Shown here in pieces: positions 28,572 through 45,963 of a stretch of DNA of 64,000 bases. How positions within the stretch are numbered: position 1 is the stretch's first letter; the number at the start of each line of letters is the position of its first letter. Source of the stretch: Peptococcaceae bacterium BRH_c8a. Lineage in GTDB: Bacteria > Bacillota > Desulfotomaculia > Desulfotomaculales > Desulfallaceae. The stretch lies in NCBI GenBank assembly GCA_000961575.1, contig LADP01000046.1, positions 124,001 through 188,000 of the forward strand. Direction: 5' to 3'. The notes beneath the pieces are model-generated. The model saw only the letters and a program-made list of their open reading frames with translations. It made no database searches and was not told the DNA's origin. The position numbers and the translations under genes were made by a program.

Positions 28572-31500
28572 CTACTTTAATGAAAGAATGCGGTAGATTA
28601 ACACGGCGCCTTGGGCTCGGTCGGTGAGCATAGCCGGTTTGAATGAACCGTCCGGGAAGCCTCTAAGCAAGCCACTTTCCTCAACTGCGATTACGCTTTC
28701 CTTAGCCCAGGCGGATACCTGGTCCCGGTCGGCAAATGTCGGTTCCGTCGCTACGGGTTTCAAGTCCAGCGCTCTGGTAACCAGGGCTGCAATTTGCTCT
28801 CTGGTAATTTGCCCGTCGGCGCGCAGGGTGCCGTCTTCGTATCCTCTCACCAGTCCGGCGGCATAAGCACCTTGCAAAATATCGTAACCCTCATTATCCG
28901 GCTGCAGATCGGTAAAGCTTGGTTGGCCACCGCCACCCGTCACCGCCTCGATGCCCATAGCTTTGGCCAGCATGATGACAAATTCGCCTCTGGTTACCGG
29001 GCGTTGTGGTTCAAAATTACCGGCACCGGTATCATAAATAATCCCTTTAAAGGCCAGGTACTGAATTTCTTTCCGGGCCCAATCGTAAGAACCGTTGCCC
29101 ACATCGGCAAAAGAGACCGGCTGTTTTTCCCGGGCCAACACCGCAAACTTGGTGAAGTGAGTAACCAGGCCCGAAATCTCCCCGTTGGCCGGGTCAATTA
29201 CTGACGGCACCGGTACCCAACAGTCATTGGCTGCATCATACCAGGCCAGGATTAGGTTTTCCCAGGCACCGGCAAAGCCGGCTATTTTGATCCTCAGGAT
29301 CACCGAGTTATTGAAGGTAAGCCCGTCAGGCCCAAAGTCATACACCGAAGACACCTGGCGGTGAGTAACCGGTATCGTGACGTCAGTCCCGGTTAATTCG
29401 TAGATTTCTATTGTTGTTTGACTATCCAGAGACCCGGCGGGTAGTCTAAAGCTTATTTCGTTATCGTTACTCTGGGTGTCGGTGATCTCGCTATCGCCCG
29501 CCGGGTCAACCGACCGCGAAACTCTAACCCGGTTTTGCTCCAGCCACTCTTGCCACTTAACCCGGTCATCATCTGTCATGGGCTGATCCGAATCGAGAAC
29601 AACCACGTTATATGCAGCCAGTTCAATTCGATTGAACAGTTCTTCTAATACCGGTGCCAGGCCGGGGAGCAATTCTAACAACTTGCTCAGTTCTTCCGCT
29701 ACCAGTTCCCTGGTCTGCTCATCTGCTTCTAATTCTTGCGGCACCACGGATCCCTGCGCACCCGAGCCGGTATCATCAGCATCCAGGGCCCAGAACCACT
29801 CCACTTCGTCCCCGTCCTCCAGCCGGTAATCCTTGGCCGAAAGCGTTGCTGGCGCTACGCCGTTAACTTTATATTTCCACCCGGCGGTACTGCTGGAATC
29901 CTCGGTAATGCCTTCTATGCTGTACACGTAACGGTCGTTATACCTGGTAACCACGCTAAGTGGGGTTTGTTTTAAGGCATACATAGGGTTTTGGTCTTCG
30001 TTATCGGCAATTTCAACCGCTCCAGAATAAAGCTGTTCCCGGTTTTCGCCCCGAACCAGGACGTCAACGGTTATGGTATCTCCGCCGTTACCGCCAATAC
30101 TACCTTGAGGTGTAACATCCAATGAGACTTCAGCCGGTACAATATTGGGGTAACCCAGTGGGTCGTACTTTTCCGCCCGGATATTCAGGGAGCCTTCTGC
30201 AGCAGTGAAGCTGATGGGTTGGCCTGAGGTTACTATTCGTTCTTGGCCGTTAATAACCAATTTAATGCCACTAACTTGCTGTTCAATAAGGCCCAGGAAC
30301 CAGTCATTTAATTTAGCTGTAACTGTAACTGTCAGGCTTTTCCCAGCCTGTGGTGTTTGGGGCTGCAAATTAACCAGAGTAAGGTAAGTTTTATCGCTAT
30401 AAGTGTTTATATCGTAAGCGCCCAGATAAAATATAGCTTCGTCTCCCGGGGCCACATTATAACTGCCCGCCCCGGTGCCCAGGGAAGAAACGTCGATGTC
30501 ACCGCCCCTTAGGACGTAGTATTTCCAAGACGTAGCAGTGTCCTCAGCAAGGTTAAAGTTGCCGCTTTCATCCAGGACAGAGTTGATAAAACCTCCCGGA
30601 GCGGATACGTTTGCCTCGCCGACCAATGTTTTAAGTGCGTCCAGCGCAGTGCCGCCGACCTCCACGGTACCGGAAGTCAGTTTACCCCCCGCACCTTCCA
30701 CCCGGACCTTGACCTGCTTGTTAACCGCCTGACCAACGGAAATCTGCCTGCTGTTCCGAACCAGCTCCGGATAGCCATCCGGGTGCTGTTTATCAACACT
30801 TAACGTATATGTTCCCGCTGCAGTCAGGGGTATCTGCACCTGTCCATAAAATGTTTCGTATATTTCACCGTCGAAATCTATGGTGACCGGATCCACCGGT
30901 ACAGTGGTAAAATCACCTTCGCCCCAGTCAAAGTACTTGCCGCTTACGTTTATGGCAAGCGTTTGCCCCGCTGTAGGGCTGGAGGGGCTGATGCTTATTT
31001 CGGGTATATAAGTTTTGCTGCTCCAGTCGCCAGTATCGTAGGCCCCGATGTAGAAAACAACCTCATCCCCGGGAGCAACATTGTACCCCCCCGGCCCTGT
31101 GCCCATAGAAGCTGCGTCCACCACACCGCTCCTTACAACATAGTAAAGCCAGGAGGTAGCAGTATCACTATTCAGGTTGGGGTTACTACTTTCAGCAAAG
31201 ATGGTGGCAATCATGCCGTAGGAATCTAAGAGTACGTTTGAGCCGCCAACCAGCGCTTGCAAGGCATCCAGCGCAGTCCCGTCCACTTCCACCTCGCCGG
31301 AGTCCAGGGTGCCCAGTGCCCCCTCAACCCGAACATTTATTGAACTTGCCCCGGGGTCTTCACCGCCGCCGCTTCCACCCTCGCCCACCACAAATGAGCC
31401 ATAGGAACCTCTTAAATCGGCCAGAGCCATTAACGCCTGGCGGGTGGCGAAATCATCGCTGCCGTACCCAGCTAAATGGGCAAAAGAGCCGTCGGCAAGC

Positions 31501-32261
31501 CGGAAATTAAACATAGCGTGAATTATATTGTTATCGCCCTTATTCCAGTTGGTGATATCCTCACCGCAAGCCAATAGGCCCTGAATTACAAAGGCTATGC
31601 TTTCTGTATTCTCGCTGCCGAACGAAGCAAACCCGCCTGAATCCAGCTGCACATCCTGTAAATAATCCAGCGCCCCATACACCGAACCGTACACACTGGC
31701 ATTTACAGTATGGTCGGCTATAGCCATCATGGTCAATCCGGTGGTATCAGGGTCGCCGGAGGCACCGCTGATCGAAAATCCACCATCACTTTTTTGCTGA
31801 TTGACTATATAATCTAACGCCTCGGAAACTCTATAACTCCCACCCGCTCTGTCCAGGGCCAAAACGGCATAAGCAGTGTTATTAATCGAACCGCCAAAAC
31901 CACCGTTAGATTGCTGTTTGGCAGCCAATATCTCCACCAGGTTAATGCTGTTGCCGTCCTGGTCGGTGTAATCCCGCGGGTCTTCCCCGATAGCATCCAG
32001 CGTTAAAATAGTTGAAGCGTAGTTTAAAACAGAGCCATCCAGTTCAACCAGCCATTCCGAAAGATCGAACCGGTCGATAACCCCGGCCCGGCTAAAACCA
32101 ACTATCTCTTCCCAGTGATCCGGCTGTGGTTTACTATTTTCGTAGTATTCAACCAACCTATCAAGGGCTTCATTCAGCGTTTCTGCAGAAGCCGGAGCGG
32201 CAAAAGACCCCATAATGCAAAGTAAGGCAAGCAAGGTAATAAATATTTTTCTTCTGGTCAT
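28572..32261 (-). CDS. Giant transcobalamin-like SLH surface protein
   Basis: A 1229-aa exported protein; signal peptide 1-27 (ASA|ET). Residues ~28-292 form an alpha/alpha toroid with recurring GGF turns (QQSNGGFGGS, QQKSDGGFSIS, QLDSGGFASFG). A Gly-rich linker leads to three DUF4430 domains at about 307-412, 515-617 and 729-827 (SWLYYVVRSG, SWKYYVLRGG, GWKYKVNGVAP). Ig-like segments separate them. A helical, then ZU5-like region (~850-1045) and three SLH motifs (from ~1050) complete it. Toroid plus DUF4430-type beta domain is the architecture of vertebrate transcobalamin/intrinsic factor. The gene follows a cobalamin riboswitch, so a surface corrinoid-binding role is well supported but unproven. 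The ATG (MTRRKIF) follows GGCGGTGA. Confidence 0.88.
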   Translation of the reverse strand: MTRRKIFITLLALLCIMGSFAAPASAETLNEALDRLVEYYENSKPQPDHWEEIVGFSRAGVIDRFDLSEWLVELDGSVLNYASTILTLDAIGEDPRDYTDQDGNSINLVEILAAKQQSNGGFGGSINNTAYAVLALDRAGGSYRVSEALDYIVNQQKSDGGFSISGASGDPDTTGLTMMAIADHTVNASVYGSVYGALDYLQDVQLDSGGFASFGSENTESIAFVIQGLLACGEDITNWNKGDNNIIHAMFNFRLADGSFAHLAGYGSDDFATRQALMALADLRGSYGSFVVGEGGSGGGEDPGASSINVRVEGALGTLDSGEVEVDGTALDALQALVGGSNVLLDSYGMIATIFAESSNPNLNSDTATSWLYYVVRSGVVDAASMGTGPGGYNVAPGDEVVFYIGAYDTGDWSSKTYIPEISISPSSPTAGQTLAINVSGKYFDWGEGDFTTVPVDPVTIDFDGEIYETFYGQVQIPLTAAGTYTLSVDKQHPDGYPELVRNSRQISVGQAVNKQVKVRVEGAGGKLTSGTVEVGGTALDALKTLVGEANVSAPGGFINSVLDESGNFNLAEDTATSWKYYVLRGGDIDVSSLGTGAGSYNVAPGDEAIFYLGAYDINTYSDKTYLTLVNLQPQTPQAGKSLTVTVTAKLNDWFLGLIEQQVSGIKLVINGQERIVTSGQPISFTAAEGSLNIRAEKYDPLGYPNIVPAEVSLDVTPQGSIGGNGGDTITVDVLVRGENREQLYSGAVEIADNEDQNPMYALKQTPLSVVTRYNDRYVYSIEGITEDSSSTAGWKYKVNGVAPATLSAKDYRLEDGDEVEWFWALDADDTGSGAQGSVVPQELEADEQTRELVAEELSKLLELLPGLAPVLEELFNRIELAAYNVVVLDSDQPMTDDDRVKWQEWLEQNRVRVSRSVDPAGDSEITDTQSNDNEISFRLPAGSLDSQTTIEIYELTGTDVTIPVTHRQVSSVYDFGPDGLTFNNSVILRIKIAGFAGAWENLILAWYDAANDCWVPVPSVIDPANGEISGLVTHFTKFAVLAREKQPVSFADVGNGSYDWARKEIQYLAFKGIIYDTGAGNFEPQRPVTRGEFVIMLAKAMGIEAVTGGGGQPSFTDLQPDNEGYDILQGAYAAGLVRGYEDGTLRADGQITREQIAALVTRALDLKPVATEPTFADRDQVSAWAKESVIAVEESGLLRGFPDGSFKPAMLTDRAQGAVLIYRILSLK

Positions 32262-32496
32262 TAAATTCACCGCCTATTTTATAATTGTGAAATTAAAATA
32301 CTCCTGTACTAAAAATATTTTTAAATTTTCTGGCTAAATCAAACCCAAACTTACTGTTTTGTTAATCGCCTATATAAAAAAGTTGCATTATGCCAACCGT
32401 GTTTTAAAAAGAATTAACCCCCGTGAAACACCATGGATGAGCATGGTTAAACATAAAACCCAAGAAAACAGGTAAAGAAATTGATGGGGGTTAAAA

Positions 32497-32528: not shown

Positions 32529-32725
32529 CATTAGACTACCTGAAAAACAAATAATAGGCAACCTTTCCCTGGAAGGCTTTACCGTATGAAGCATTCGGGT
32601 CTGGTTCCTGACTATCTGGCTAACCGAGGTTAACCAGTCACAGTGGCCGGACCGTCCAGGATTCTCACCTGGTTCCCTAGAAATCCCCGGAATATGTAAT
32701 CCATTAAAGAAACATTCCTAAACCG
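32497..32725 (-). promoter_or_regulatory. Cobalamin riboswitch
   Basis: On the minus strand the segment reads AGGGAACCAGGTGAGAATCC, GGACGGTCCGGCCACTGTGA (the B12 box GCCACTG) and, after a variable stem, GTCAGGAACCAGACC. These are in the order and spacing of the B12-riboswitch core. It ends in a terminator hairpin (32505-32528). The next gene in this direction is the transcobalamin-like SLH gene, with its start about 235 bp beyond the terminator. High cobalamin should therefore reduce expression of that gene and probably of the genes after it. Confidence 0.93.
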
Positions 32726-32862
32726 GAGAAACCCAAATGCACAAAACGATATGTTATTTTATATTGTTATTTTACCTCTTTTTGCAATTAAAATCAAAAT
32801 GTTTTTTTTATAGGGTTAAAGTGGTATTAATACCGGCAGACCGCCGGTTTTAATCAGACAGC

Positions 32863-33072
32863 TCAGGTACCGTTAAACCCAACGGTAACTTTATCTCCTT
32901 CAATAATAACGGGAACCAGCCTGTCGGGCGAATATTTAAGAAAATCTTTGTAAGCAGACTTGCTTGACAATACGTCGTGGTATTCACAGGCACCTTTAGA
33001 CTCGTAATGGTGTTTGGCCGCCACACTAAATGGACAACCCATTTTGCCGTAAATGATAACCTTATCGCTCAA
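32863..33072 (-). CDS. Glutaredoxin-like protein (Uxx-star type), possible C-terminal selenocysteine
   Basis: A 69-aa thioredoxin-fold protein, MSDKVIIYGKMGCPFSVAAK, with a CPFS active site and cis-Pro region RLVPVIIEGDKVTVGFNGT. It resembles the small glutaredoxin-like Uxx-star (seleno)protein families, here with Cys at the usual Sec site. The start is TTG 33072, eight bases after AAGGAGG; an in-frame GTG nearer lies inside that site. The stop is UGA, followed by Ala, Val and a second UGA. A hairpin (ACCGGC-GGTCT-GCCGGT) lies 20 nt beyond. The first UGA could therefore encode selenocysteine (GT-Sec-AV). That is a hypothesis; the plain 69-aa form is the conservative call. It follows the corrinoid adenosyltransferase gene by 20 bp. 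Confidence 0.7.
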   Translation of the reverse strand: MSDKVIIYGKMGCPFSVAAKHHYESKGACEYHDVLSSKSAYKDFLKYSPDRLVPVIIEGDKVTVGFNGT

Positions 33073-33092
33073 TACATCCACCTCCTTCCGGG

Positions 33093-34543: not shown

Positions 34544-35319
34544 AGTATTCCTCCCGCATACAGGGAACCGGTTGCCAACAGGCCATCAACGGCCAGAATA
34601 AGCAGCACGTTGCGCCTGGAAAAACTGCGGTTATCTTCAACACCCGGCAGGTTTCCGGTGTAACAACGGGCAACTAGAGCATTATATACATTTTGCGAAT
34701 TGACGTACGAATTAAGGAACATAGAAACCACCAGCCGGCCCAAAGAGTTAAATCCGGTGGACAAGTTTTTGTAACCCAGACGGCAGGACTGGGCCACATA
34801 TACTTTACCCGCCACCTCCAGCAGTACAAAGATAAACCGGTAAATAAAGGTGGTTAATTCCACCACCAAGGCAGGCACACGTAGTTTTCTCAACACTGAT
34901 ACTATCTCTGACATTGGTGTTGTCAGAGATAAAAAATACAAACACGAAACCGAACCCAGCGAACGCAGGAACAGATTAACCCCCGCGTCAAGACTATGAC
35001 TGGTAAAACCCAGGGCATACGGCCCCAAACCGGTAAACCAGATCAAACCTTGTTGTTCCCTGGTCAGGGTGAGCATTAAAGTAATTACACCCACTATTAA
35101 AAACGCTCCCGGCAGCAGCATCAGCTTAAGGTAAAACCTCCACGGGACACCGGCCAATAACACTATGGCCCCCGCCATCAGCCCAATAACGGCCAGTGAG
35201 GCAACCACACTGGTAATGGACAGGCACAGGGAGATAGTCAAAGCAAAAAACAGGCATTTTTCCCCGGGATGCACGGACACCAGCTTATTGTTATAAGCGT
35301 AATGGTCAATTAGGAGCAT
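34540..35319 (-). CDS. cbiQ: Cobalt transport transmembrane protein CbiQ
   Basis: A 259-aa EcfT-family protein; the N-terminal DHYAYNNKLVSVHPGEKCLFF is typical of CbiQ. Five or so membrane helices and the cytoplasmic coupling region around VYVAQSCRLGYKNLSTG and ALVARCYTGNL (ARxY-G motif) are visible. It overlaps cbiN by 14 bp and cbiO by 4 bp. It is the scaffold through which CbiO drives the CbiMN substrate unit. Confidence 0.92.
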   Translation of the reverse strand: MLLIDHYAYNNKLVSVHPGEKCLFFALTISLCLSITSVVASLAVIGLMAGAIVLLAGVPWRFYLKLMLLPGAFLIVGVITLMLTLTREQQGLIWFTGLGPYALGFTSHSLDAGVNLFLRSLGSVSCLYFLSLTTPMSEIVSVLRKLRVPALVVELTTFIYRFIFVLLEVAGKVYVAQSCRLGYKNLSTGFNSLGRLVVSMFLNSYVNSQNVYNALVARCYTGNLPGVEDNRSFSRRNVLLILAVDGLLATGSLYAGGIL

Positions 35320-35620
35320 CTGGTTTACACTCCTTTTGACTTTTTTTGCCTCTCAGGTAGCCCAAATAATAACAGACAAAACCCGCCCCCATAGCCCCTT
35401 GCAAGGTAAAAAGTAAACTCTCCACTTCACCGCTGGGAGTCTCCCATATGTTGTTAAACCAAGGCTTATATTCAGGATGCAGTTCAATAATTGCTTCCTG
35501 TGCTTTGCCGTCGGCACCGCCGAAATCAGCTCCTTTAACATAGACAAGCGGAAATACAGTGATTAAAACAACCAGCATAATCAGCAATAAGTTTACATAA
35601 TTAAACTGATTCTTGCTCAT
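35306..35620 (-). CDS. cbiN: Cobalt transport protein CbiN
   Basis: A 104-aa protein with two membrane helices (about 8-28 and 70-90) around an extracytoplasmic loop containing GADFGGADGKAQEAI and YKPWFNNIWE, the CbiN hallmark. CbiN inserts a loop that helps metal reach the CbiM binding site. It overlaps cbiM by 20 bp and cbiQ by 14 bp. Confidence 0.93.
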   Translation of the reverse strand: MSKNQFNYVNLLLIMLVVLITVFPLVYVKGADFGGADGKAQEAIIELHPEYKPWFNNIWETPSGEVESLLFTLQGAMGAGFVCYYLGYLRGKKSQKECKPDAPN

Positions 35621-36377
35621 GCGTACTCACCTCTTGGGGAATCACGGACAGCTGAATTAAATCATCCTTACTATATGTATAGATTAAATTGAAGATCAGC
35701 AAAGTTAACAACCCTTCACTTATGGCCAGGGGCACCTGGGTAAAGGCAAATATAGTGGTAAATTTGGCGAACGATAAGGCTATACCCCCGTTTACATCCG
35801 GAAAGGCAAGGGCCAACTGCAACGATGTAGTAATATAAGTGGTCAAATTGCCTAACATGGCCGCCCCAAAAACAGCCAGCCAGCGCGGCAGATTTAGACG
35901 CATTGCTCCCTTGTATACCCCGTAGGCAATAAACGGGCCGACTACAGCCATAGAAAAAGCGTTAGCCCCGATGGTGGTAATGCCCCCGTGAGCCAGCAAG
36001 AGCGCCTGAAATATAAGCACGATGCTGCCCAGCACCGACATGGCGGCAGGGCCAAAAAGGATCGCTCCCAAGCCCACCCCCGTTGGATGGGAACAACTAC
36101 CGGTGACCGAAGGGATTTTTAGTGCCGACAGAGCAAACGCAAATGCTCCGGCAAAGGCCAACAGCATTTTAAGCCTGGGATTTAGAGTAACGGTTCTCCT
36201 AATCGACCTGAGACCGATAATAAAGAACGGCAGCGTGATTATAATCCACAACAAGCACCACTGGCGGGGAAGAAAACCTTCCATTATATGCATGGCGTAG
36301 GCGGCATCGGGTAGGGCCAATGAGGTCACTAAAAATGCATAGATGCCAAGCATGCGATATTGTTTGCGAGCTGTCAT
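35601..36377 (-). CDS. cbiM: Cobalt transport substrate-binding protein CbiM
   Basis: A 258-aa membrane protein. An N-terminal signal peptide (MLGIYAFLVTSLALPDAAYA) precedes MHIMEGFLPRQWC, the mature N-terminus whose Met-His-Ile-Met residues bind Co2+/Ni2+ in the family. Six or seven membrane segments follow, with SVTGSCSHPTGVGLGA and HGGITTIGANAFSMAVVGPF as CbiM marks. Cobalt rather than nickel is inferred from the linkage to CbiN, the adenosyltransferase and corrinoid methyltransferases. AGGGGGTAA precedes the ATG. It has a structured leader with terminator-like hairpin upstream. Confidence 0.94.
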   Translation of the reverse strand: MTARKQYRMLGIYAFLVTSLALPDAAYAMHIMEGFLPRQWCLLWIIITLPFFIIGLRSIRRTVTLNPRLKMLLAFAGAFAFALSALKIPSVTGSCSHPTGVGLGAILFGPAAMSVLGSIVLIFQALLLAHGGITTIGANAFSMAVVGPFIAYGVYKGAMRLNLPRWLAVFGAAMLGNLTTYITTSLQLALAFPDVNGGIALSFAKFTTIFAFTQVPLAISEGLLTLLIFNLIYTYSKDDLIQLSVIPQEVSTHEQESV

Positions 36378-36572: not shown

Positions 36573-37370
36573 TCAATAACATTGGGCGTTATAGTATTTG
36601 CATTTGGTCTCCCTGCAGCCGTGGGGATGGCGTTGGCTATCCCGGCACAAAATAACACTGCCGACAGAAAGCTCAACCTGCAAGTAATCTTCACACAACT
36701 GCCTGCTTAATCCCAGGGCGGTACGGACAAAATTTTTGCAGCAGCACGGCCCGGTTTCATTGGCAATAGCATTAACTACCCGGGATACCACGTGCATGGT
36801 CACCGCAGTTTCCTCGTCCTTCGGGCACCCGGCCCCTAAAATTACTGAAAAAGCGGCACCGATAGCCGGGGCCACACCACAAACACCGGTCAAACCGCAG
36901 TAAGCGCTAATCGCCTGTTTCCTGGTCCGATTCAATGCTTCGGTAATTTGTTCCCCGGTGATTTTAATCTTACCGGTGCTCTTGATGGCCGCCAGCAGCG
37001 CACCTGATGCTATCCAGGCATGTTCACAGCCCAGCATGGGGATGTCGGTGTCCTGGATAATGCCTTCGGCAATCAGCACCGGATCTGTATTTTGCGCCGT
37101 CAGCAGCATATCGGTAATAACACCAAAGTACCTTTTACCATGGCATTGATCACATACAAAATGTCCCTGGCTGCAAAATACGTATCCCACTTCACTCTTA
37201 CCGCAGTAGATGCAGCTTAATTCCCGGCCGTATTCAGAGTAGTCCAGCTTACCGCCGCATAACAGACAATCTTTTTTGCTTTCTTTGGGATGTTGAACAA
37301 CACCCTTAACGATCAGCCCTCAGCAATTATGGCCATTTTTTTGTCCCACATTTTTTTGCTCATCAGCCAT
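36573..37370 (-). CDS. DUF5714-type Cys-rich protein with probable selenocysteine
   Basis: Read from ATG 37370 (GGGGG seven bases upstream), the frame is continuous to 36573 except for one UGA at codon 17. The context is GHNC-UGA-GLIVKGVVQHP. Beyond it the reading contains zinc-ribbon pairs (DCLLCGG, CIYCGK, CSQGHFVCDQCH) that would lie outside any protein started later. The only usable later start, GTG 37190, would remove them. A hairpin with G-led loop (GGG-TGTT-GTTC-AACA-T-CCC) lies about 21 nt after the UGA, fitting a bacterial SECIS. The 265-aa product matches DUF5714 in its core (GCEHAWIASGALLAA, AYCGLTGVCGVAPA). Function is unknown. It starts 30 bp after DUF1638 and precedes the cbiM leader. 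Confidence 0.78.
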
Positions 37371-37400: not shown

Positions 37401-38006
37401 TTACGCACCGGGGAATTTGCTTTCAAGAGTAGCTTTCTTTAGTGCCGAAAGTAAAAGGCCCTCCAAATAATCCAACCCGGTTTCGTAACAAACCACCGGC
37501 AACCCGGAATAATCAAATATCTCCAATATGTCCAGTTCAGGCATATCGATTAAGCCAGTATCAATAATCAGCATCTGGTCACAGCAGCCAAAATTCAACC
37601 GGGCTGAAACTCTGTCCCACTGCAGCGTTTTTTTAACTATTTTATCCCAGTTTTCAAACCACCCGGCAGTAAGAAAAAATGATTTTCTATATTGATCCTG
37701 GCCCGAAATCTCTGGACCCAAGACCATTTCCACACAATTTTCGGCTCCGATCAGTACCGCCTGGCTGGCTTCGGCCACCTGCTCAATATCGGTAAAACAT
37801 TTATTGCCGTAAACTATAACCTGACCCGGTTCATTCAGGTGCGCTTTAATTTCCGTGCTTAGCCGGTCAGGGTAAACATGCAGGGCGCAATCAATATACT
37901 TTAAATCAACATCCAAGCCATGCTTACGCACTAAAAAATCAATCTCTCGCTTAACAATCGAGCAACACAACATCTTAATCATTGAGCGTCCAGCGGTTCC
38001 AGTCAT
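37401..38006 (-). CDS. DUF1638 family protein
   Basis: A 201-aa protein whose core (KMLCCSIVKREIDFL, VIVYGNKCF, FLTAGWFENWDKIV, LIIDTGLIDMP) matches DUF1638. This is a soluble family frequently placed beside corrinoid methyltransferases in anaerobes; its reaction is unknown. Several conserved Cys residues (CCS, CFTD, GAENCVEM, FGCCDQ) suggest metal or cofactor binding. I placed the start at the ATG overlapping the TGA of the upstream gene (ATGA), indicating coupled translation. A TTG seven codons earlier is the alternative. Confidence 0.8.
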   Translation of the reverse strand: MTGTAGRSMIKMLCCSIVKREIDFLVRKHGLDVDLKYIDCALHVYPDRLSTEIKAHLNEPGQVIVYGNKCFTDIEQVAEASQAVLIGAENCVEMVLGPEISGQDQYRKSFFLTAGWFENWDKIVKKTLQWDRVSARLNFGCCDQMLIIDTGLIDMPELDILEIFDYSGLPVVCYETGLDYLEGLLLSALKKATLESKFPGA

Positions 38007-38317
38007 GGTTTTATACTTAAGTGGCAATCCTTGGGCAGTGCTAATTCGGTTACCACCTCTATGCTTTTTAAAACCCCGGCCGGTACCAGGCAGGCCGGGT
38101 GTGCCACACCTTCACACAAGGTCTTATACGTCTGAGTTTCGTGCATTTTGCAAAAAAGCTCTTTGTACGGGTCAACAGTGATTAAATTTGTCGTAATTTT
38201 TTTTATATTTGGACAATCTGTTGCAATACTTACCTCTACTTGGCGTTTATTAATTCTGGTTGCTTTTACTTTGGTTGTAAAACCGCATATCCCGGACATA
38301 ATCTCAACATCAGCCAT
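38003..38317 (-). CDS. Small Cys-containing protein, DUF6951-like (copy 2)
   Basis: A 104-aa protein with MSGICGFTTKVKA, DCPNIKK, LCEGVAHPACLVPAGVLKSIEV and ALPKDC. It is a paralogue of the next gene upstream, sharing the G-x-CGF start, the second Cys about 20 residues on, and the C-x-VP-x-G/A-I/V-x-K-x-I motif. The conserved Cys residues suggest metal or thiol chemistry. The family (DUF6951, as I recall it) is found with methyltransferases and DUF1638. AAGGAGG precedes the ATG. It overlaps the DUF1638 gene by 4 bp. Confidence 0.72.
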   Translation of the reverse strand: MADVEIMSGICGFTTKVKATRINKRQVEVSIATDCPNIKKITTNLITVDPYKELFCKMHETQTYKTLCEGVAHPACLVPAGVLKSIEVVTELALPKDCHLSIKP

Positions 38318-38397
38318 CCGCTTGCCTCCTTAGAGTCTTTCGCTCTACTCCCCGACAAGCCAAAGTATAAATAACCACTGAGTAACTCATTCTATAT

Positions 38398-38712
38398 TTA
38401 TTCCGATATATTAATCGTGACGTCTCTGGGTAATGCGCCACCCAATTCAACCTGGATGGCTTTGATAATGGCACAGGGTACCGGACAGTCCGAGTTGTGC
38501 AGCCTTTTACTGGCCGCTTTGTAGATATAAGATTCCACCATGTTGCCGAAAACGCCCTTTGAGCAATCCACCTCCGTCAAATCCTCATTCAACATCCGGA
38601 CGTCCTGGCAGGCACTAATTATCTCAACCTTAACCTTCATTTTAGAAATTTTTTGCACTTTTACTACTACCGTAAAACCACATGCTCCGGCAAAAACTTT
38701 GGCCTTAGCCAT
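38398..38712 (-). CDS. Small Cys-containing protein, DUF6951-like (copy 1)
   Basis: A 104-aa paralogue of the following gene: AGACGFTVVVKVQKISKMKVKV, ACQDVRMLNEDL, NSDCPVPCAIIKAIQVELGGALPRDV. Identical length and aligned Cys positions (CGF, CQ/CP, CPVP) show a tandem duplication that has since diverged. GGGGGAGGAG precedes the ATG. It is the first gene after the terminator closing the methyltransferase locus, so it may begin the DUF6951-DUF1638-DUF5714-cbi transcription unit. Confidence 0.72.
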   Translation of the reverse strand: MAKAKVFAGACGFTVVVKVQKISKMKVKVEIISACQDVRMLNEDLTEVDCSKGVFGNMVESYIYKAASKRLHNSDCPVPCAIIKAIQVELGGALPRDVTINISE

Positions 38713-38824
38713 TTACGGGTTCTCCTCCCCCATCACACCATTAATTAGGATCATCTCTATTATGACATAAAGTGCCAAATAAATAAAAATCTTTTGTTTT
38801 TTTATTATACTACTTAGCCGGATA

Positions 38825-38876
38825 TTAAAAAATGTTGGTTTTGGGGCTTAACCCTGGGGGACAAGCCCCAAAACCG
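38825..38876 (-). terminator. Rho-independent terminator of the methyltransferase locus
   Basis: GGTTTTGGGGCTT...AAGCCCCAAAACC, a perfect 13-bp stem (arms 38837-38849 and 38863-38875), is followed on the minus strand by AACATTTTTT. It lies 25 bp after the stop of the last methyltransferase gene. Confidence 0.9.
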
Positions 38877-38899
38877 CATGTGATAGGGAGGGAAATTTA

Positions 38900-39946
38900 T
38901 TATTTGTTCTTTCTAGCCCACTTCTCAGCTCCATACTGCTTAACGGTATCAACCATCGCCTTTACGTTGGCCACAGGCGCTTCAGGCCAGATATCACAAC
39001 TGGGCAATACCGAGTCCACACTGCCTTCCATAGCTTCAATTGTCGCTTTCTCCACAACTTCCGGGGTACCCAAAACCAAAACGCTATACGCGTCGATGTT
39101 GCCGAACAGTAAAGGCTCATAGCCAATATCTTCACGGCTCTTAGCCAGGTTGTTCTTGATTTCCACGCTCAGGGCGTCTGCACCGCTGGCCTGCATATTT
39201 TTCATCACAATATTAGTGCTGCCGCAGATATGCAGGAAGTTAGGCGAACCGATATTCGCAAAAATACGGCCCAGGTGCGGATCGATTACCTGCTTGAAGT
39301 TCCGGGGGCTCAGAACATCGGTGGTGGCACCCATCTCACGGATACAAATAATATCGGCGCCTGCTTCGCGATATTTGGCCGCCATAGTTATAATCAGGTC
39401 GGTAAGCACGGATAACATGCCGTTTACCAGGTCTGGTTTTTTAAATACCAGCTTAAACAGGTCGTTCAAATCCATTAACTGACCAGCCATTGTGAAGGGT
39501 CCCAAAAGCCAGGCCACTACCGGAACCTCGTTACCCACATCTTTTTTCAATAAACTCAAGGCTTCGGTAACCACCGGGTAGCGACCCCTTTCCCAAATCT
39601 TGTCGGGAATCGCTATGGTAGTCATTTCCTCTTCGTTATGGATAATTTTTTCTTTAATAGTGGGGTACAGCAGCTGGTTTACGTTCTCGTAGGCATTCAT
39701 AACGCAGCCCAGCGCTTCGGCATCCACACACATATCGTAGGGCACAATAACGCTTTCCATACCGGTTGCTTTGTAAGTGAAAGCCGCAGTGTTGGCCATT
39801 TTAACCGCATCCCCGTGCACAGTGGGGAATTTGTATCCGTATTCATCCAGGCTGGCCGTCAATACACTACCCATACCACTAAAACAGGCCATTCGATCAG
39901 CGTCTTTATTGGCAAATATGCTCAGTACTCTCTCTTTTGATGTCAC
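38900..39946 (-). CDS. Corrinoid methyltransferase, MtaA/CmuA-type URO-D family
   Basis: A 348-aa cobalamin-dependent methyltransferase of the URO-D fold. The zinc ligands typical of MtaA/MtbA are present: NFLHICGST (His-x-Cys) and LPSCDIWPEAP (third Cys). Such enzymes move a methyl group between a corrinoid protein and a thiol or other acceptor. MtaA proper uses coenzyme M in methanogens; the bacterial acceptor here is unknown. AAGGAGATGATCCA precedes a GTG start. It is the last gene before a strong terminator in a locus with two corrinoid proteins, so it probably serves one of these. Confidence 0.85.
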   Translation of the reverse strand: MTSKERVLSIFANKDADRMACFSGMGSVLTASLDEYGYKFPTVHGDAVKMANTAAFTYKATGMESVIVPYDMCVDAEALGCVMNAYENVNQLLYPTIKEKIIHNEEEMTTIAIPDKIWERGRYPVVTEALSLLKKDVGNEVPVVAWLLGPFTMAGQLMDLNDLFKLVFKKPDLVNGMLSVLTDLIITMAAKYREAGADIICIREMGATTDVLSPRNFKQVIDPHLGRIFANIGSPNFLHICGSTNIVMKNMQASGADALSVEIKNNLAKSREDIGYEPLLFGNIDAYSVLVLGTPEVVEKATIEAMEGSVDSVLPSCDIWPEAPVANVKAMVDTVKQYGAEKWARKNK

Positions 39947-39961
39947 TGGATCATCTCCTTA

Positions 39962-40357
39962 TTACTCAATTCTGCCGCCGGGGTTTTTAACCGACATATC
40001 ATAAATTTCATCGACCAGAATTTGCACTACCGCAATAGGATTGGGCATGTTCATCCGGTTAAGGCTTTCTACATACAGATCATAAATTGGCCCGCTGGTA
40101 ACCAGCTCTACTTTCCCGAAAAACCTGTAACCGCTGAGCGTTTCCCGATCGGCAACCACAATAGCTGCCCGGGGGTTTTCCAGAATGTTACGATATGTTC
40201 TTCTACCAACGATTTCGGCAAAAGCAATGATATTGTCGCTGATTACCCGGGTAGATCCCTTCGGGGCCACGCTGGGATTGCCAGCCTGATCCGCCGTGGC
40301 GATAAAACACTGATTTTGCTCAACCATTTTTTTCATTTCCGGACTGATTACGGGCAT
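39962..40357 (-). CDS. Pyridoxamine 5'-phosphate oxidase-like flavin protein
   Basis: A 131-aa split-barrel protein (MPVISPEMKKMVEQNQCFIATADQ, GNPSVAPKGSTRV, RRTYRNILENPRAAIVV) of the PNPOx-like family, which binds FMN or similar cofactors. It is much shorter than true PdxH, so vitamin B6 synthesis is unlikely. Between MtrH and a URO-D methyltransferase it could donate electrons or protect a corrinoid; this is inference. AAAGGAGG precedes the ATG. Confidence 0.8.
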   Translation of the reverse strand: MPVISPEMKKMVEQNQCFIATADQAGNPSVAPKGSTRVISDNIIAFAEIVGRRTYRNILENPRAAIVVADRETLSGYRFFGKVELVTSGPIYDLYVESLNRMNMPNPIAVVQILVDEIYDMSVKNPGGRIE

Positions 40358-40376
40358 TTAATAATACCTCCTTTAA

Positions 40377-41315
40377 TTATCCGGATAACTGCTTGGCAAA
40401 GTCGCCAAAGAATTTATAAAGCGGGTGGTTTTCGTTATCCGGTAGTTTACCGGTTTCGTCGTAAACCATAGTCGCCAGCATCATACTGGCAGTGGCCACA
40501 GCCGGAATAATCTTGGTCAGATTAATGATTGGCCCGCTGAATAGTAAATCGGACCAGAAGAAAGCGGCCAGGCCCTGGGTGGTGGCGTTCATCGCGGTAA
40601 AGCCATCGGAACCCCACATTTCCTTGGCTTCTTTCCACATGTAGGTCCCGTTGGAAGAGGCGACCCCACAGGGATACCCGAACTCTTCCTTCACCATTTT
40701 ACTGGCGATGCAGGAGAAGGAAGTGGACGGCAGGTTCATCACCGAAGTGTCGACCAGCACCGTTTCAAACTTGTGCTCGCCAATCTGCTCCAACATCTTT
40801 TGCAGCCCGCTGACCCGCCCTTTGGGTGAGGGGTCTTCCTGATTGTAAGCCTGCAGCACGACGTGCTTAATCCCCAGTTCAGTCAGTGTTTTAACCTGTC
40901 CCGGGATATCTTTGTCCCAGGGAGTAATACTGTTATATAGTAATCTATCCTGCAGCCCTTTTTGGCAGCAGTATTCGGCAGCTTCCAAACGGGCCTTTTC
41001 CACCCACATATCAATACCAAAGGGCCGGTCGCTAATACTGGTATAAAAATCAACGTATTCTTTCATTTCGGCCGCCGAAGTGGCCACCAGCGCCACCAGC
41101 GCGGGCACTCCGGTCTGGTCGGAGAGCTCTTCCATTTTCTTTACATATTCCGTGGCTTTCTGGCGGTCAAACTTTCTCTCTTTCCTGCTTTCCATAATCT
41201 TATCCCCGTTATGAAACATCGAGGCAATTAATAGCGGCGGGTTGTTGCCCGGCTGCCCGCCAATTTTCCAATTACCCAACGAAAAAACTTTTTGTTCACC
41301 GGATAAAGTAAGCAT
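40377..41315 (-). CDS. Methylcorrinoid:tetrahydrofolate methyltransferase, MtrH/MtgA family
   Basis: A 312-aa TIM-barrel protein of the MtrH family: GEQKVFSLGNWKIGGQPGNNPPLLIASMF at the start and VLVDTSVMNLPSTSF, CGVASSNGTYMWKEA downstream. In bacteria, relatives (MtgA, MtqA) transfer the methyl group of a methylated corrinoid protein to tetrahydrofolate. This links demethylation of methoxylated or methylamine-type substrates to the Wood-Ljungdahl pathway. No other Mtr subunits (A-G) are present, which rules out the methanogen sodium-pump complex. GAAAGGAG precedes the ATG. Confidence 0.9.
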   Translation of the reverse strand: MLTLSGEQKVFSLGNWKIGGQPGNNPPLLIASMFHNGDKIMESRKERKFDRQKATEYVKKMEELSDQTGVPALVALVATSAAEMKEYVDFYTSISDRPFGIDMWVEKARLEAAEYCCQKGLQDRLLYNSITPWDKDIPGQVKTLTELGIKHVVLQAYNQEDPSPKGRVSGLQKMLEQIGEHKFETVLVDTSVMNLPSTSFSCIASKMVKEEFGYPCGVASSNGTYMWKEAKEMWGSDGFTAMNATTQGLAAFFWSDLLFSGPIINLTKIIPAVATASMMLATMVYDETGKLPDNENHPLYKFFGDFAKQLSG

Positions 41316-41346
41316 TTTAGTTAACTCCTTTCATCAGTTGGGGACA

Positions 41347-43314
41347 TTACCTCTTGGGTATCTGATCCAAGATGTTTTGAATACTTGGGAACTTATGTTT
41401 AGCATGCGGGAAGGCCATCGCCAACGCAAACCGATCCTGGAAATCCGATTCCACAGCTGTTTCCACGAACTCAACACTTTGCGCAATTTCCTGGGCTTCC
41501 CTGCGCTTGCCCCGATCCAGCAGCGCCAGCTTGGCGCCGTCACCGGCTGCATTACCTACGGCCTGCACTTTCTCCAGGTCGCAGTCCGGGAACATGCCCA
41601 TTACCAGGGCACTTTCCTTGTCAATAAAGCTGCCGAAAGCACCAGCCAGAGTAACGCTGTCCAATGCAGCCACCCCGTACTTCTCCATCAGGTACTCCGC
41701 ACCGCAGTACAACGCCGACTTGGCCAGCTGCACCGCCCGGACGTCACCCTGGGTAACTACAATATCCTTACCGATGGATGTTTCCTGGGCCCAAGCCACC
41801 ACGTATTCCGGTTTACCGTCTTCACCCCGGCGCACCCGGGGGAATTGGCCTTCCAGTTGTTTAATGTTAAACCGGCCCGACTTGTTAATGATGGCCGACT
41901 TGAACAGCTCGGCAATCACATCGATAATAGCCGAACCACAGATCCCTTTAGAGTCTGTTTTTTGCACCTGCGGGTACCATTCTTCCATCCCGATCACCTT
42001 ATAGGTAGGTTCCAGAGTTTCCGGGTCAATGCGAATTCTTTCAATGGCTCCGGGGGCGGCCCGCATGCCAAACTTAATCTGGGCACCTTCCAAAGCCGGT
42101 CCGGTGGCGCAAGAGGTGCACATTAATCTACTGCCGTTACCCACGTCAATTTCCCCATTGGTGCCGATATCGATAATCAGCCGAACCTCTTCGGTTTGTT
42201 TGTAGGGTTCTTCAGCAATTAGTACGCTTACATTGTCCGGCCCGACAAACCCGGCCTCCACCGGCAGGGTATGGACGTAAGCGCTTTTGTTCACTTTAAT
42301 GCCCAAATCCCGTGCCTTCAGGTTCAGCGAGCTTTTTACCCCGGCGGTAAAAGGTGACCGCCCCACAAATTTAGGGTCAATGTTCAGGGCAATATGCTGC
42401 ATCACAGTATTGAAAACAAGGGTCATTTCCATAATATCCGTGGGCTGCTTCTCAATTTGCTTAGTCATCCGATCAGCCAGGGTGTTTAAGCCCTTGATGA
42501 TGGCCTTATGCATCTTTTCCAGCCCGTCGTCGTTCATCATGTGGTAAGTGATGCGTGACAGGACATCTTCACCATACCGAACCTGCGGGTTCATCATGGA
42601 GTCGCGCACCAGGGTCTCACCCGTTCTCAGGTCGCAAAGATAAGCAGCCACCGATGTGGTGCCGATATCCACGGCCAGGCCCAGCACGCTATCCACCAGG
42701 TCGGGCTCAACATGGATAATCTCCTGGTCATCCCAGACGGTGGCAGTGACACACCAGTTACCATCCCTGATAACATTGGGTAACTGCAGCAGGCAGAAGT
42801 AGTCGATGCCCAGATCGGCGGGCAAATCATATTTTTGGTGCAGCGCTTCCCGCAGCCGTTCGTAGTCACCATGATGGTCATCCAGGGTGGCGGGTTCCAA
42901 TTCAATGTAATATTTGCTGACCGCCGGATCCAGGTTAAAGATCCGTCCTTCTTTGCCTATCTCCAAACAAACTTGTTTTGTGCCGCGGCTTTCCTCCGGC
43001 ACGAAAACCAGCACATCGCCCTGAATCTTAGCGATGCAGGCCAGGCGGTAATTGTCCTTGATCATTTCTTCGGTCATAAAAGGCGACTCTTCTTCGGCCT
43101 GGAAGGGAGAAAGGTGTGATGCCTGGGAATCTATATTAAACTTTTCGAAAAAGCCTTCTTCTAATTTAACCATACACTTGCCACACTTTTTGGCTCCGCC
43201 GCAGACGTTTTCAATGTCTACTCCCAACTCCCGGGATGCTTCGAGGATTGTTTTACCCTCTTGAACCCGGCTCCTTCTTCCGGATGGTTGAAAGATTACC
43301 TGGTATTCATTCAT
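41347..43314 (-). CDS. Corrinoid activation protein (2Fe-2S / ASKHA, RACo-like)
   Basis: The 655-aa protein has an N-terminal 2Fe-2S domain with Cys38, Cys44, Cys47 and Cys93. A middle linker domain ends near 205. The ASKHA/DUF4445 ATPase domain starts at VLGLAVDIGTTSVAAYL, with LIIDIGTNGEIDVG and GICGSAIIDVIAELF. It should reduce Co(II) back to Co(I) on the locus corrinoid proteins at the cost of ATP. The linker is not interrupted, unlike in the second copy at 9.7-11.7 kb. GGAGGAG precedes the ATG. It lies between corrinoid protein and MtrH genes, the usual setting. Confidence 0.93.
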   Translation of the reverse strand: MNEYQVIFQPSGRRSRVQEGKTILEASRELGVDIENVCGGAKKCGKCMVKLEEGFFEKFNIDSQASHLSPFQAEEESPFMTEEMIKDNYRLACIAKIQGDVLVFVPEESRGTKQVCLEIGKEGRIFNLDPAVSKYYIELEPATLDDHHGDYERLREALHQKYDLPADLGIDYFCLLQLPNVIRDGNWCVTATVWDDQEIIHVEPDLVDSVLGLAVDIGTTSVAAYLCDLRTGETLVRDSMMNPQVRYGEDVLSRITYHMMNDDGLEKMHKAIIKGLNTLADRMTKQIEKQPTDIMEMTLVFNTVMQHIALNIDPKFVGRSPFTAGVKSSLNLKARDLGIKVNKSAYVHTLPVEAGFVGPDNVSVLIAEEPYKQTEEVRLIIDIGTNGEIDVGNGSRLMCTSCATGPALEGAQIKFGMRAAPGAIERIRIDPETLEPTYKVIGMEEWYPQVQKTDSKGICGSAIIDVIAELFKSAIINKSGRFNIKQLEGQFPRVRRGEDGKPEYVVAWAQETSIGKDIVVTQGDVRAVQLAKSALYCGAEYLMEKYGVAALDSVTLAGAFGSFIDKESALVMGMFPDCDLEKVQAVGNAAGDGAKLALLDRGKRREAQEIAQSVEFVETAVESDFQDRFALAMAFPHAKHKFPSIQNILDQIPKR

Positions 43315-43449
43315 ACTTACGATCCTCTCCTCCGAACGCGTGATTATGTTTCATCCGCTGCAAACTGTCCCTGCCCCATTGCAGGGGCAGGGACGAAAAA
43401 TTATCATACCCGTAAAATAGTTTTTGATTGTCTTAAACTTAACTATCCT

Positions 43450-43506
43450 GTGTCATCCTGAGCGTTAGCGAAGGATCTTAGATTCTTCACTTCGTTCAGA
43501 ATGACA
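43450..43506. repeat. TCATCCTGAGCG inverted pair
   Basis: GTCATCCTGAGCGTTAGCG and its inverse TTCGTTCAGAATGAC lie between the corrinoid protein and activator genes, just after the corrinoid protein stop. This is the only repeat copy inside the methyltransferase locus. Confidence 0.85.
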
Positions 43507-43528
43507 TAATACTGTCAACGGTTTAGGT

Positions 43529-44194
43529 CTAAATATCTTTCAGTGAAGCTACCATGTTAATGGCATCCTGCAAAGCGTTGCTGGCGTTGGGGGCGTAGCC
43601 GTCGGCGCCCCACTTGTTGGCGATTTCCTCGGTCACCGGCGCGCCGCCAATCATGATTTTGGCCTTGGGGTTTTTCTCTTTAATCTGCTTGATGATGTCT
43701 TTCATGCCCACCATTGTGGTGGTCATCATAGCAGACAGGGCCACGATTTCAGACTCGGTTTTGAGTTGTTCTTCCACGAAGTTCTCCAGGGGTACGTCCC
43801 GGCCCAAGTCGTGCACTGTAAATCCAGCGGCGTCAAACATCATCTTGACGATGTTTTTACCAATGTCGTGCACGTCACCCTGCACCACGCCCATAACTAC
43901 CTGACCCTTGACTCTGGATTTGCTTTCGTCACCCTTAAGCAGGGGGCGAAGGATGCCTAATCCGGCATACATGGCATCAGCGCACATTAGCAGTTCAGGC
44001 ACGAAGTATTCCTGCTCTTCGTACAGCCGACCGCATTCTTGCATCCCGACCACCAAACCGTCGAACACGGCTTTATGAGGATCAATCCCTTCTTCCAGGG
44101 CTGTATTGACAGTGGCAACAACGGCTTCCTCCTCAAAGTTAACTACGCCGTCCGCTAACGCTTTCAGTAATTCCTGTTCCCTTTCTGGTGTCAA
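43529..44194 (-). CDS. Corrinoid (cobalamin-binding) methyltransferase protein, MtbC/MtgC type (copy 1)
   Basis: A ~221-aa corrinoid protein. An N-terminal helical cap (about 1-85, with LEEGIDPHKAVFDGLVVGMQECGRLYE and YFVPELLMCADAMYAG) precedes a Rossmann B12-binding domain. The lower cobalt ligand lies in GDVHDIGKNIVKMM (DxHxxG). SAMMTTTM and IGGAPVTEEIANKWGADGYAPNA are also typical. It carries the methyl group between the locus methyltransferases. The TTG at 44194 is favoured, since AAAGGGG sits nine bases before it; the nearby ATG 44203 directly abuts that ribosome site. Confidence 0.93.
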   Translation of the reverse strand: MTPEREQELLKALADGVVNFEEEAVVATVNTALEEGIDPHKAVFDGLVVGMQECGRLYEEQEYFVPELLMCADAMYAGLGILRPLLKGDESKSRVKGQVVMGVVQGDVHDIGKNIVKMMFDAAGFTVHDLGRDVPLENFVEEQLKTESEIVALSAMMTTTMVGMKDIIKQIKEKNPKAKIMIGGAPVTEEIANKWGADGYAPNASNALQDAINMVASLKDI

Positions 44195-44246
44195 ATGAAG
44201 CATCCCCTTTCAGTTGTTTTTTAATATCAAGCCCCATCAGCAGGTT

Positions 44247-45320
44247 TTATTTGTATACCCCATATGTTTTAGCCGCTTCTACAATGGCCATAGCATTAAG
44301 CACCGTACCATTGGGCGGATACTCGCAGCCGGGAGCCAGAATAAAGCCGCCGTTGCAGTCCTTAAATGTTTCAATGCACTTCCTGGCCGCCTCCAGGGTA
44401 TCTTCGTAAGTATAAGCAAGCGCCAGTTCCGAGGGCGTCAGGTAACCAACGGTAACGATCTGGTTGCCCCACTTGGCGGCGTGCTCTTCCCAGTTTTTGC
44501 AGTCGTCGGCCGGGTAAGCGTGGGATATGCCTACGGGATCGAGCCATTTCTGCTGGGCGTCAAAGTAAATACCGTTACCGCAGTTGTGCAGCAGCACCGG
44601 CAAACCGGTGGACCGCATGGTATCCATAACCTTTTTGGCGTACGGTGCTTCAATCTTTTCCCACATTTTCTTTCTCATAATGCTCTGCGAAGCATATAGG
44701 GTGTCCTGCATCAGGGCGTGGGCCCCGGCTTCCGCCATCGCCTTGGCGTAGTCGCATAAAACATCGGCAATCACGTCTTCGGCGTGCATTACGGCTTCGG
44801 GGTGCTTCAAGCAATCCATGAAGACCTGCTCATGACCCCTCAGTTGGGAAAGCACGCCCAGCGGGCCGTAAATAAAGGCGCAGATGGCAACTTCCTTACC
44901 AATTCTCTTGGACAGAATGTCGATAACTTTTAAAACCATGCTCATCCTTGGTGTTTCACGGGGGTTGATTCTCTCTATTTTGTAATAATCGTCTCTACCT
45001 TTAATTACGGGGTTATAAGTCTGGGTGTACGCGGTACTATTGACGGGGTATACCACTTCCTGGCCCCAGTCGGCGCACTCTACGGACAGGTCGATCAGCA
45101 GCGTTAAGCAGTCGTCCCCAATAATTTTTTGCGCCTGGATAAAGGACTCCGCACATTCTTCCGCATCGGTGGACCATTTGGGATAATCAACACCCAATAC
45201 CCGCCGTGATGCACCGTTAAACAGTGTGCACACCGGTACCCGGTCCGGCTTCTGTCTGCTTAGGGCAGCGGCTGTCCTTTCCAGTCCGGTCATTTGTTGG
45301 CCTTGAAATAAAGAAGCCAT
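44247..45320 (-). CDS. Substrate:corrinoid methyltransferase I, URO-D family
   Basis: A 357-aa URO-D-fold methyltransferase with zinc-type motifs LLHNCGNGIYF (His-x-Cys) and LAPGCEYPPNGTVLNA. It lies directly upstream of the corrinoid protein gene, the usual position of the enzyme that takes the methyl group from the substrate. Known bacterial relatives act on phenyl methyl ethers or methylamines. The sequence alone does not tell which substrate applies here. AGGGGAGG precedes the ATG. Confidence 0.85.
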   Translation of the reverse strand: MASLFQGQQMTGLERTAAALSRQKPDRVPVCTLFNGASRRVLGVDYPKWSTDAEECAESFIQAQKIIGDDCLTLLIDLSVECADWGQEVVYPVNSTAYTQTYNPVIKGRDDYYKIERINPRETPRMSMVLKVIDILSKRIGKEVAICAFIYGPLGVLSQLRGHEQVFMDCLKHPEAVMHAEDVIADVLCDYAKAMAEAGAHALMQDTLYASQSIMRKKMWEKIEAPYAKKVMDTMRSTGLPVLLHNCGNGIYFDAQQKWLDPVGISHAYPADDCKNWEEHAAKWGNQIVTVGYLTPSELALAYTYEDTLEAARKCIETFKDCNGGFILAPGCEYPPNGTVLNAMAIVEAAKTYGVYK

Positions 45321-45405: not shown

Positions 45406-45963
45406 TCAATCCAGTAACAGAATCCCTGTATAAATCACCTCCTTAGGATTATCAAGGCCAAAGGGCAAACCTGCTTCCCCGGCTGTTTTGATGACGTCAA
45501 TCCCCATTGCTTCCGCGCTGGGGCGCGCCTGCGTCGGGTTTCGGCAGGGTAAGCCGGATCGAGCCCCGACACACTCTTCACAAATGCGACAATTGGATGC
45601 CCCAAGACCAGTCGAAAAATAAAATCCCAACCCGAGGGCTTTTTTCTCCAGCTCACCCAGCATCAGCTGCGCTCTTCTTTCGGTCTCGGCCAGTTTTTTT
45701 TCTTCTATCCCGTCAGAGACAACCTGAATCACCAGCGCGCAGGAGTATTTGGCTAAAACGGTTCTAAACTCGGCCACCGTCATGGTATTGGGTGGGCAGC
45801 GCAAATTGTTCCCATAGTTTGGGCAAAAGGGAATTTGGCACTTCAGCCTTACCCGTTCATCAACAACTATCTGATTGGCCGGCATCAACTCCGCCCTGTA
45901 AGCCCCCAATACCAGGGCACATTCTTTAACCTCGGCGTATTTTTCAAACTTGGTCTGTGTCAT
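45406..45963 (-). CDS. DUF2284 Cys-rich metal-binding protein
   Basis: The 185-aa protein has Cys clusters typical of DUF2284: RLKCQIPFCPNYGNNLRCPPNTMT near the N-terminus and NCRICEECVGARSGLPCRNP in the second half. These are arranged as for iron-sulfur or zinc sites. The function is unknown; the family is common beside corrinoid methyltransferases in anaerobes. GAGGAGG precedes the ATG. It sits between the VWA protein and methyltransferase I. Confidence 0.83.
   Translation of the reverse strand: MTQTKFEKYAEVKECALVLGAYRAELMPANQIVVDERVRLKCQIPFCPNYGNNLRCPPNTMTVAEFRTVLAKYSCALVIQVVSDGIEEKKLAETERRAQLMLGELEKKALGLGFYFSTGLGASNCRICEECVGARSGLPCRNPTQARPSAEAMGIDVIKTAGEAGLPFGLDNPKEVIYTGILLLD

Follow-up and report, generated by a model that had tools for sequence, protein, structure and literature searches.

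The window, by which we mean the whole 64,000-nt stretch of DNA analysed, carries on its minus strand a gene (36573..37370, terminal UGA stop included) that corresponds to a stand-alone N-terminal half of the selenoprotein MbdU and that we call the CU-DUF5714 gene. Translated from 37370 to 36573 with TGA as U, it begins at an ATG and yields 265 residues, MADEQKNVGQKNGHNC-U-GLIV..., with a single internal UGA at codon 17 (37322-37320, minus strand) in the context Cys-UGA-Gly, here read as selenocysteine (Cys16-Sec17). The pairs C35xxC38 and C53xxC56 follow in the same frame. A previous sequence-only reading had described this arrangement, with one UGA at codon 17 of an otherwise open frame and Cys pairs behind it that a later start would delete, and the retranslation confirmed each point: the sole table 11 open reading frame listed at this gene is 205 aa long, starts at a later GTG and lacks both CxxC pairs. 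The terminal UGA (36575-36573) was considered as a second selenocysteine (Sec) codon and rejected, since the frames of most homologues close on a UAA or UAG no more than a few codons away; it is therefore taken as an ordinary stop.

Directly upstream on the same strand, after a gap of 30 nt, lies a DUF1638 gene (37401..38027, minus), followed by a corrinoid methyltransferase block (38003..45320, minus) made up of two DUF6951 genes and genes for a URO-D/MtaA-like protein, a PNPOx protein, an MtrH-like protein, a RACo-type activator, a corrinoid protein and a second URO-D protein. Beyond it is a DUF2284 gene without internal UGA (45406..45963, minus), related to the half of MbdU that the CU-DUF5714 gene lacks. 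Directly downstream are cbiM and cbiN of a cobalt ECF transporter (35306..36377, minus), and the same-strand block also holds cbiMNQO, cobO and a UXX-star glutaredoxin-like selenoprotein gene (32857..33081, minus), whose UGA (32865-32863) precedes Ala-Val-UGA stop and is followed downstream by a GGUC-type hairpin (ACCGGC-GGUCU-GCCGGU). The same genes are found in the same order in Desulfotruncus arcticus, where the UXX-star copy ends in U-V-V-stop. The domain matches and this conserved block bear out the earlier placing of a DUF5714 protein in a corrinoid locus beside DUF1638 and cbiM. In addition, a cobalamin riboswitch (RF00174, 50.5 bits, 32582-32750, minus) is located ahead of a large secreted-type gene (28572-32270).

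The hairpin with a G-led loop that had been noticed about 21 nt downstream of the UGA proved to be a bacterial SECIS-type element (37287..37305, minus) of the form GGGUGUU-[GUUC]-AACAUCCC, the apical loop GUUC (37298-37295) starting with G exactly 21 nt past the UGA. No Rfam family matched at the CU-DUF5714 gene itself. Taking the best hairpin of each of 54 homologous genes with the UGA, 35 have the loop GGUC, and in 50 the distance from UGA to loop is 18 or 21 nt. Covariation was assessed over 41 distinct rows, four poorly anchored ones being left out, and for each row the better-pairing of the two distances, 18 or 21 nt, served as anchor, which brings in a mild bias; 89.8% of stem cells were found paired. 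Double changes were seen at all six pairs and amounted to 37 cells, against 11.9 +/- 2.4 after shuffling, a value reached in 0 of 500 shuffles; because the sequences are related, neither these counts nor those of the synonymous test below represent independent events. Sliding the pairing register destroyed the pairing. As the loop encodes a conserved Gly-Gln, a synonymous site could be tested: in 33 of 36 genes the Gln codon ends in the base that fits its pairing partner in the Ala or Val/Ile codon ahead of the loop, with CAA after Val/Ile in 14 of 16 cases and CAG after Ala in 19 of 20 (Fisher p = 4e-7), and the other Gln codons of these 36 genes showed no such CAA/CAG bias. Furthermore, the hairpin is kept in spite of a differing peptide, for example in the loci L025, L085 and L092.

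A scan of GTDB genomes together with searches of related genomes gave more than 60 close homologues. The UGA is present in 54 distinct homologous genes, where the preceding residue is Cys in 52 and Gly in two; their start codons lie 6-35 codons upstream of it, in most cases with a Shine-Dalgarno-like stretch. In a tree of 78 DUF5714 domains the genes with this motif form a clade with maximal support (100/100), hereafter the CU clade, in which 53 of 56 rows have the UGA in a CU or GU context. The exceptions are L065, where TCA replaces TGA and the hairpin is kept, L074 from Syntrophomonas, with its UGA in another position, and L034/L076, in which the upstream frame is disrupted. L074 and L099, both from Syntrophomonas, show Trp-UGA and then DCAGG some seven codons on, the Sec position being displaced with respect to the CU motif. 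Two further tree entries (L055 and L058) had been labelled CU by a loose pattern; this is an artefact, their UGAs lying upstream of the start. No Sec-to-Cys orthologue was found among the 56 rows of the clade, and none of the DUF5714 proteins outside it in this tree has the CU tail. Sec-free DUF5714 domains were also seen behind radical SAM and ArsM-type methyltransferase domains (L112, L118, L122, L113, L110, L111, L114, L121 and L125) in Desulfobulbaceae, Myxococcota, Armatimonadota and other hosts, several with CC or CxC immediately before the zinc ribbon. These tails were considered as Cys counterparts of the Sec, which is suggestive only, their alignment not being a confident one.

An identical UGA in an identical context in more than 50 distinct genes is more than chance would give. 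Alignment of homologues and conservation of the upstream peptide, the two comparisons that the earlier reading had recommended, thus both came out in favour of the Sec codon. They also bear on the possibility that the UGA is a real stop, with translation from the later GTG and an untranslated or decayed stretch before it. The 205-aa frame listed with table 11 would agree with this, as would the DUF5714 relatives outside the CU clade, which begin just ahead of the first CxxC. Against it, the GTG start would delete C35, C38, C53 and C56, invariant in 78 of 78 rows, while more than 50 genes retain the upstream peptide along with the Cys-UGA pair and the hairpin, and we regard a real stop as very improbable. 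That a Trp or Cys codon was broken by sequencing error or recent pseudogene formation, as a lone UGA in an open frame could suggest, can be dismissed, given the same UGA in isolates and metagenome-assembled genomes of many families, within one clade and with a covarying hairpin.

The genome from which the window derives encodes selA, selB, selC and selD, the full set for which a check had been proposed. The selD gene is present twice (G000 C46:21690-22607 and C6:49874-50791), and both copies contain a single in-frame UGA. Two seemingly separate tRNA-Sec genes are probably one, as the two contigs that carry them show 100% identity along 2205 nt, flanks included. Each of the 37 genomes tested has selB, whether the CU gene is there or not; this demonstrates presence and not specific co-occurrence. 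Taking codon, hairpin and machinery together, UGA 17 is almost certainly decoded as Sec; SelB and charged tRNA-Sec would read it with the help of the SECIS hairpin 21 nt downstream.

In the predicted protein a zinc-ribbon-like region (37140..37268, minus; C35xxC38, C53xxC56, C66, H70 and C73xxC76H77) precedes the helical DUF5714 domain (PF18978; 36591..37118, minus), in which C115, C182, C209, H248 and H250 are located. All the zinc-ribbon residues named are invariant in 78 of 78 DUF5714 rows, and fourteen cysteines are common to almost all of them. By contrast, C115 and C182 occur in every row of the CU clade and C209 in 95%, and not one of the three is present in any of the 22 rows outside it; the HxH formed by H248 and H250 is likewise near-private to the clade. 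The structure model has a mean pLDDT of 87, with most positions outside the tail above 90, and shows a disordered tail (residues 7-31) that includes the CU pair, a beta-rich zinc-ribbon part and the helical domain. Foldseek returned nothing at E <= 0.001 (best E 0.77), a PDB sequence search gave only weak zinc-finger matches (best E 0.023), and the best VIA scores were Z 6.0 (PrpD; MmgE/PrpD fold) and 4.6 (L-serine dehydratase alpha fold), in the range of common arrangements, so that neither Foldseek nor VIA identified a convincing relative among solved folds. To judge from the residues, C115, C182, C209 and the HxH suggest a soft-metal or metalloid site, and the clade-private cysteines make this a concrete, testable candidate.

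A possible working of the protein can be sketched from this layout. The Cys16-Sec17 pair would sit on a flexible N-terminal tail ahead of the zinc-ribbon-like module and the helical domain; the thiol-selenol tail might close over C115, C182, C209, H248 and H250 and complete a site that holds a soft metal or metalloid with high affinity; the protein might then bind such an ion or organometal and either deliver or detoxify it for the adjoining corrinoid methyltransferases and cobalt-uptake proteins. We put this function forward, as a whole, tentatively. Corrinoid methyltransferase context was found in only 4 of 47 loci (L063, L064, L069 and L077); apart from D. arcticus, such genes lie near two Anaerosolibacter loci and one Desulfosporosinus locus, and most others are without them. 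The idea of a neighbourhood conserved throughout the clade was rejected, as no family turned up in more than four of 135 adjoining genes in a Pfam tally. With neighbours this heterogeneous, a role independent of corrinoids is possible.

Another reading is a general role in arsenic or metalloid chemistry, the corrinoid and cobalt location being incidental. Most CU genes are not beside corrinoid genes, fusions to radical SAM and arsenite-methyltransferase-type domains occur among the DUF5714 relatives outside the CU clade, and the DUF2284 and AhpD modules recur in the ArsM selenoprotein models NF041536 and NF041537. The corrinoid/cobalt block beside DUF1638 and cbiM, conserved in the window and in D. 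arcticus, speaks against an incidental location, and no arsenic-resistance gene was seen in the annotated part of the window. We consider such a general role a real possibility, if a somewhat doubtful one.

The chief rival to the metal-site function is a redox role, in which the Sec is real and the CU pair works as a couple (a selenenylsulfide/thiol switch, thioredoxin- or peroxidase-like) and not as a soft-metal ligand. Redox activity of adjacent Cys and Sec residues is known from some selenoproteins. In related fusions the partner of DUF5714 is a domain of AhpD type that carries a CEPU motif, and the MbdU fusion L031, alone, gave a weak sub-threshold match to a 'putative redox-active' C_GCAxxG_C_C model (E 3.5e-4). 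The structure model has no thioredoxin-like arrangement, though, the many further conserved Cys and His residues suggest metal binding, and NCBIfam names the family metal-binding. We find a redox couple rather unlikely.

Returning to the identity of the CU-DUF5714 protein, it passes the Pfam DUF5714 model comfortably (165.7 bits, cut-off 26.2) and matches the NCBIfam model NF045648, 'metal-binding double selenoprotein MbdU', with 338.8 bits (E = 5e-101) over positions 29-268 of 468, short of the cut-off of 600 bits. We are confident that it is the Sec-containing stand-alone half of MbdU. A 2026 review (PMC13188914, citing Haft and Tolstoy 2025) describes MbdU with the motif CU and two Sec. The suggestion that the window gene represents a new selenoprotein type finds no support in that form, the CU-DUF5714 half being recorded within MbdU in NF045648 and in that review. 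Neither source appears to cover the stand-alone form with one Sec, how common it is among the loci read, or its private cysteines. Since the cut-off of the sole matching NCBIfam model is passed only by the rare fusion, the stand-alone genes are likely annotated from a later start, and such annotation would likely drop the Sec and zinc-ribbon cysteines.

The DUF5714, DUF2284 and AhpD modules recombine with one another and with arsenite-methyltransferase-type domains, a context that favours the proposed soft-metal or metalloid site. A CU-DUF5714 fusion to AhpD/CMD was observed at L102 (7929-9062), L033 and L036 (genes also found as L078 and L098), with CEPU and a C-terminal CKTU; the single gene contains three in-frame UGAs, the second and third of them each followed by a hairpin, and this fusion is covered by no NCBIfam model. 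Three shorter proteins (L038/L096, L039 and L107) are without AhpD, keep the C-terminal CKTU tail, with a CCUGUUU-stem hairpin after it, and are likely two-Sec proteins. A match in a plasmid collection was also seen in Acetoanaerobium noterae, where the locus is without annotation. One reading that would join these forms, which we offer jointly and with less than even confidence, is that in the single-Sec CU-DUF5714 clade the Sec tail, the three private cysteines and the HxH arose together, that they would form a new selenolate metal or metalloid site serving corrinoid or organometal methyl transfer, and that MbdU and the triple-Sec DUF5714-AhpD protein would derive from this core by later fusion. 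The presence of a pair of selenoproteins in a single corrinoid/cobalt block that a second genus has retained ties Sec to a little-understood part of anaerobic methyl metabolism.

Several known systems can be compared with this locus. The SECIS of E. coli fdhF places an apical GGUC loop 18 nt behind the UGA; most of the homologues studied resemble it in both respects, whereas in the window copy the loop reads GUUC and the distance is 21 nt. UXX-star selenoprotein family 1 (NF041114) shares with the CU-DUF5714 protein the presence of Sec, the block and its conservation in D. arcticus, and differs from it as an unrelated glutaredoxin-like protein with C-terminal Sec. The Sec-free DUF5714 (PF18978) forms have the same domain and the invariant zinc-ribbon cysteines, but are without the CU tail and have P, P and R in place of C115, C182 and C209. 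MbdU has the N-terminal CU motif, the zinc-ribbon cysteines and the DUF5714 domain in common with the window protein, but its C-terminal half is a DUF2284 domain, whereas the window protein ends after DUF5714 and has neither the fused DUF2284 nor the second Sec, its DUF2284 counterpart being encoded about 8 kb upstream by a gene of its own that is free of Sec. In the 78-domain tree the full-length MbdU fusion (L031/L072) nests inside the CU clade; among the loci read, the stand-alone form is the commoner one, and the DUF2284 fusion is rare and nested within the stand-alone forms.
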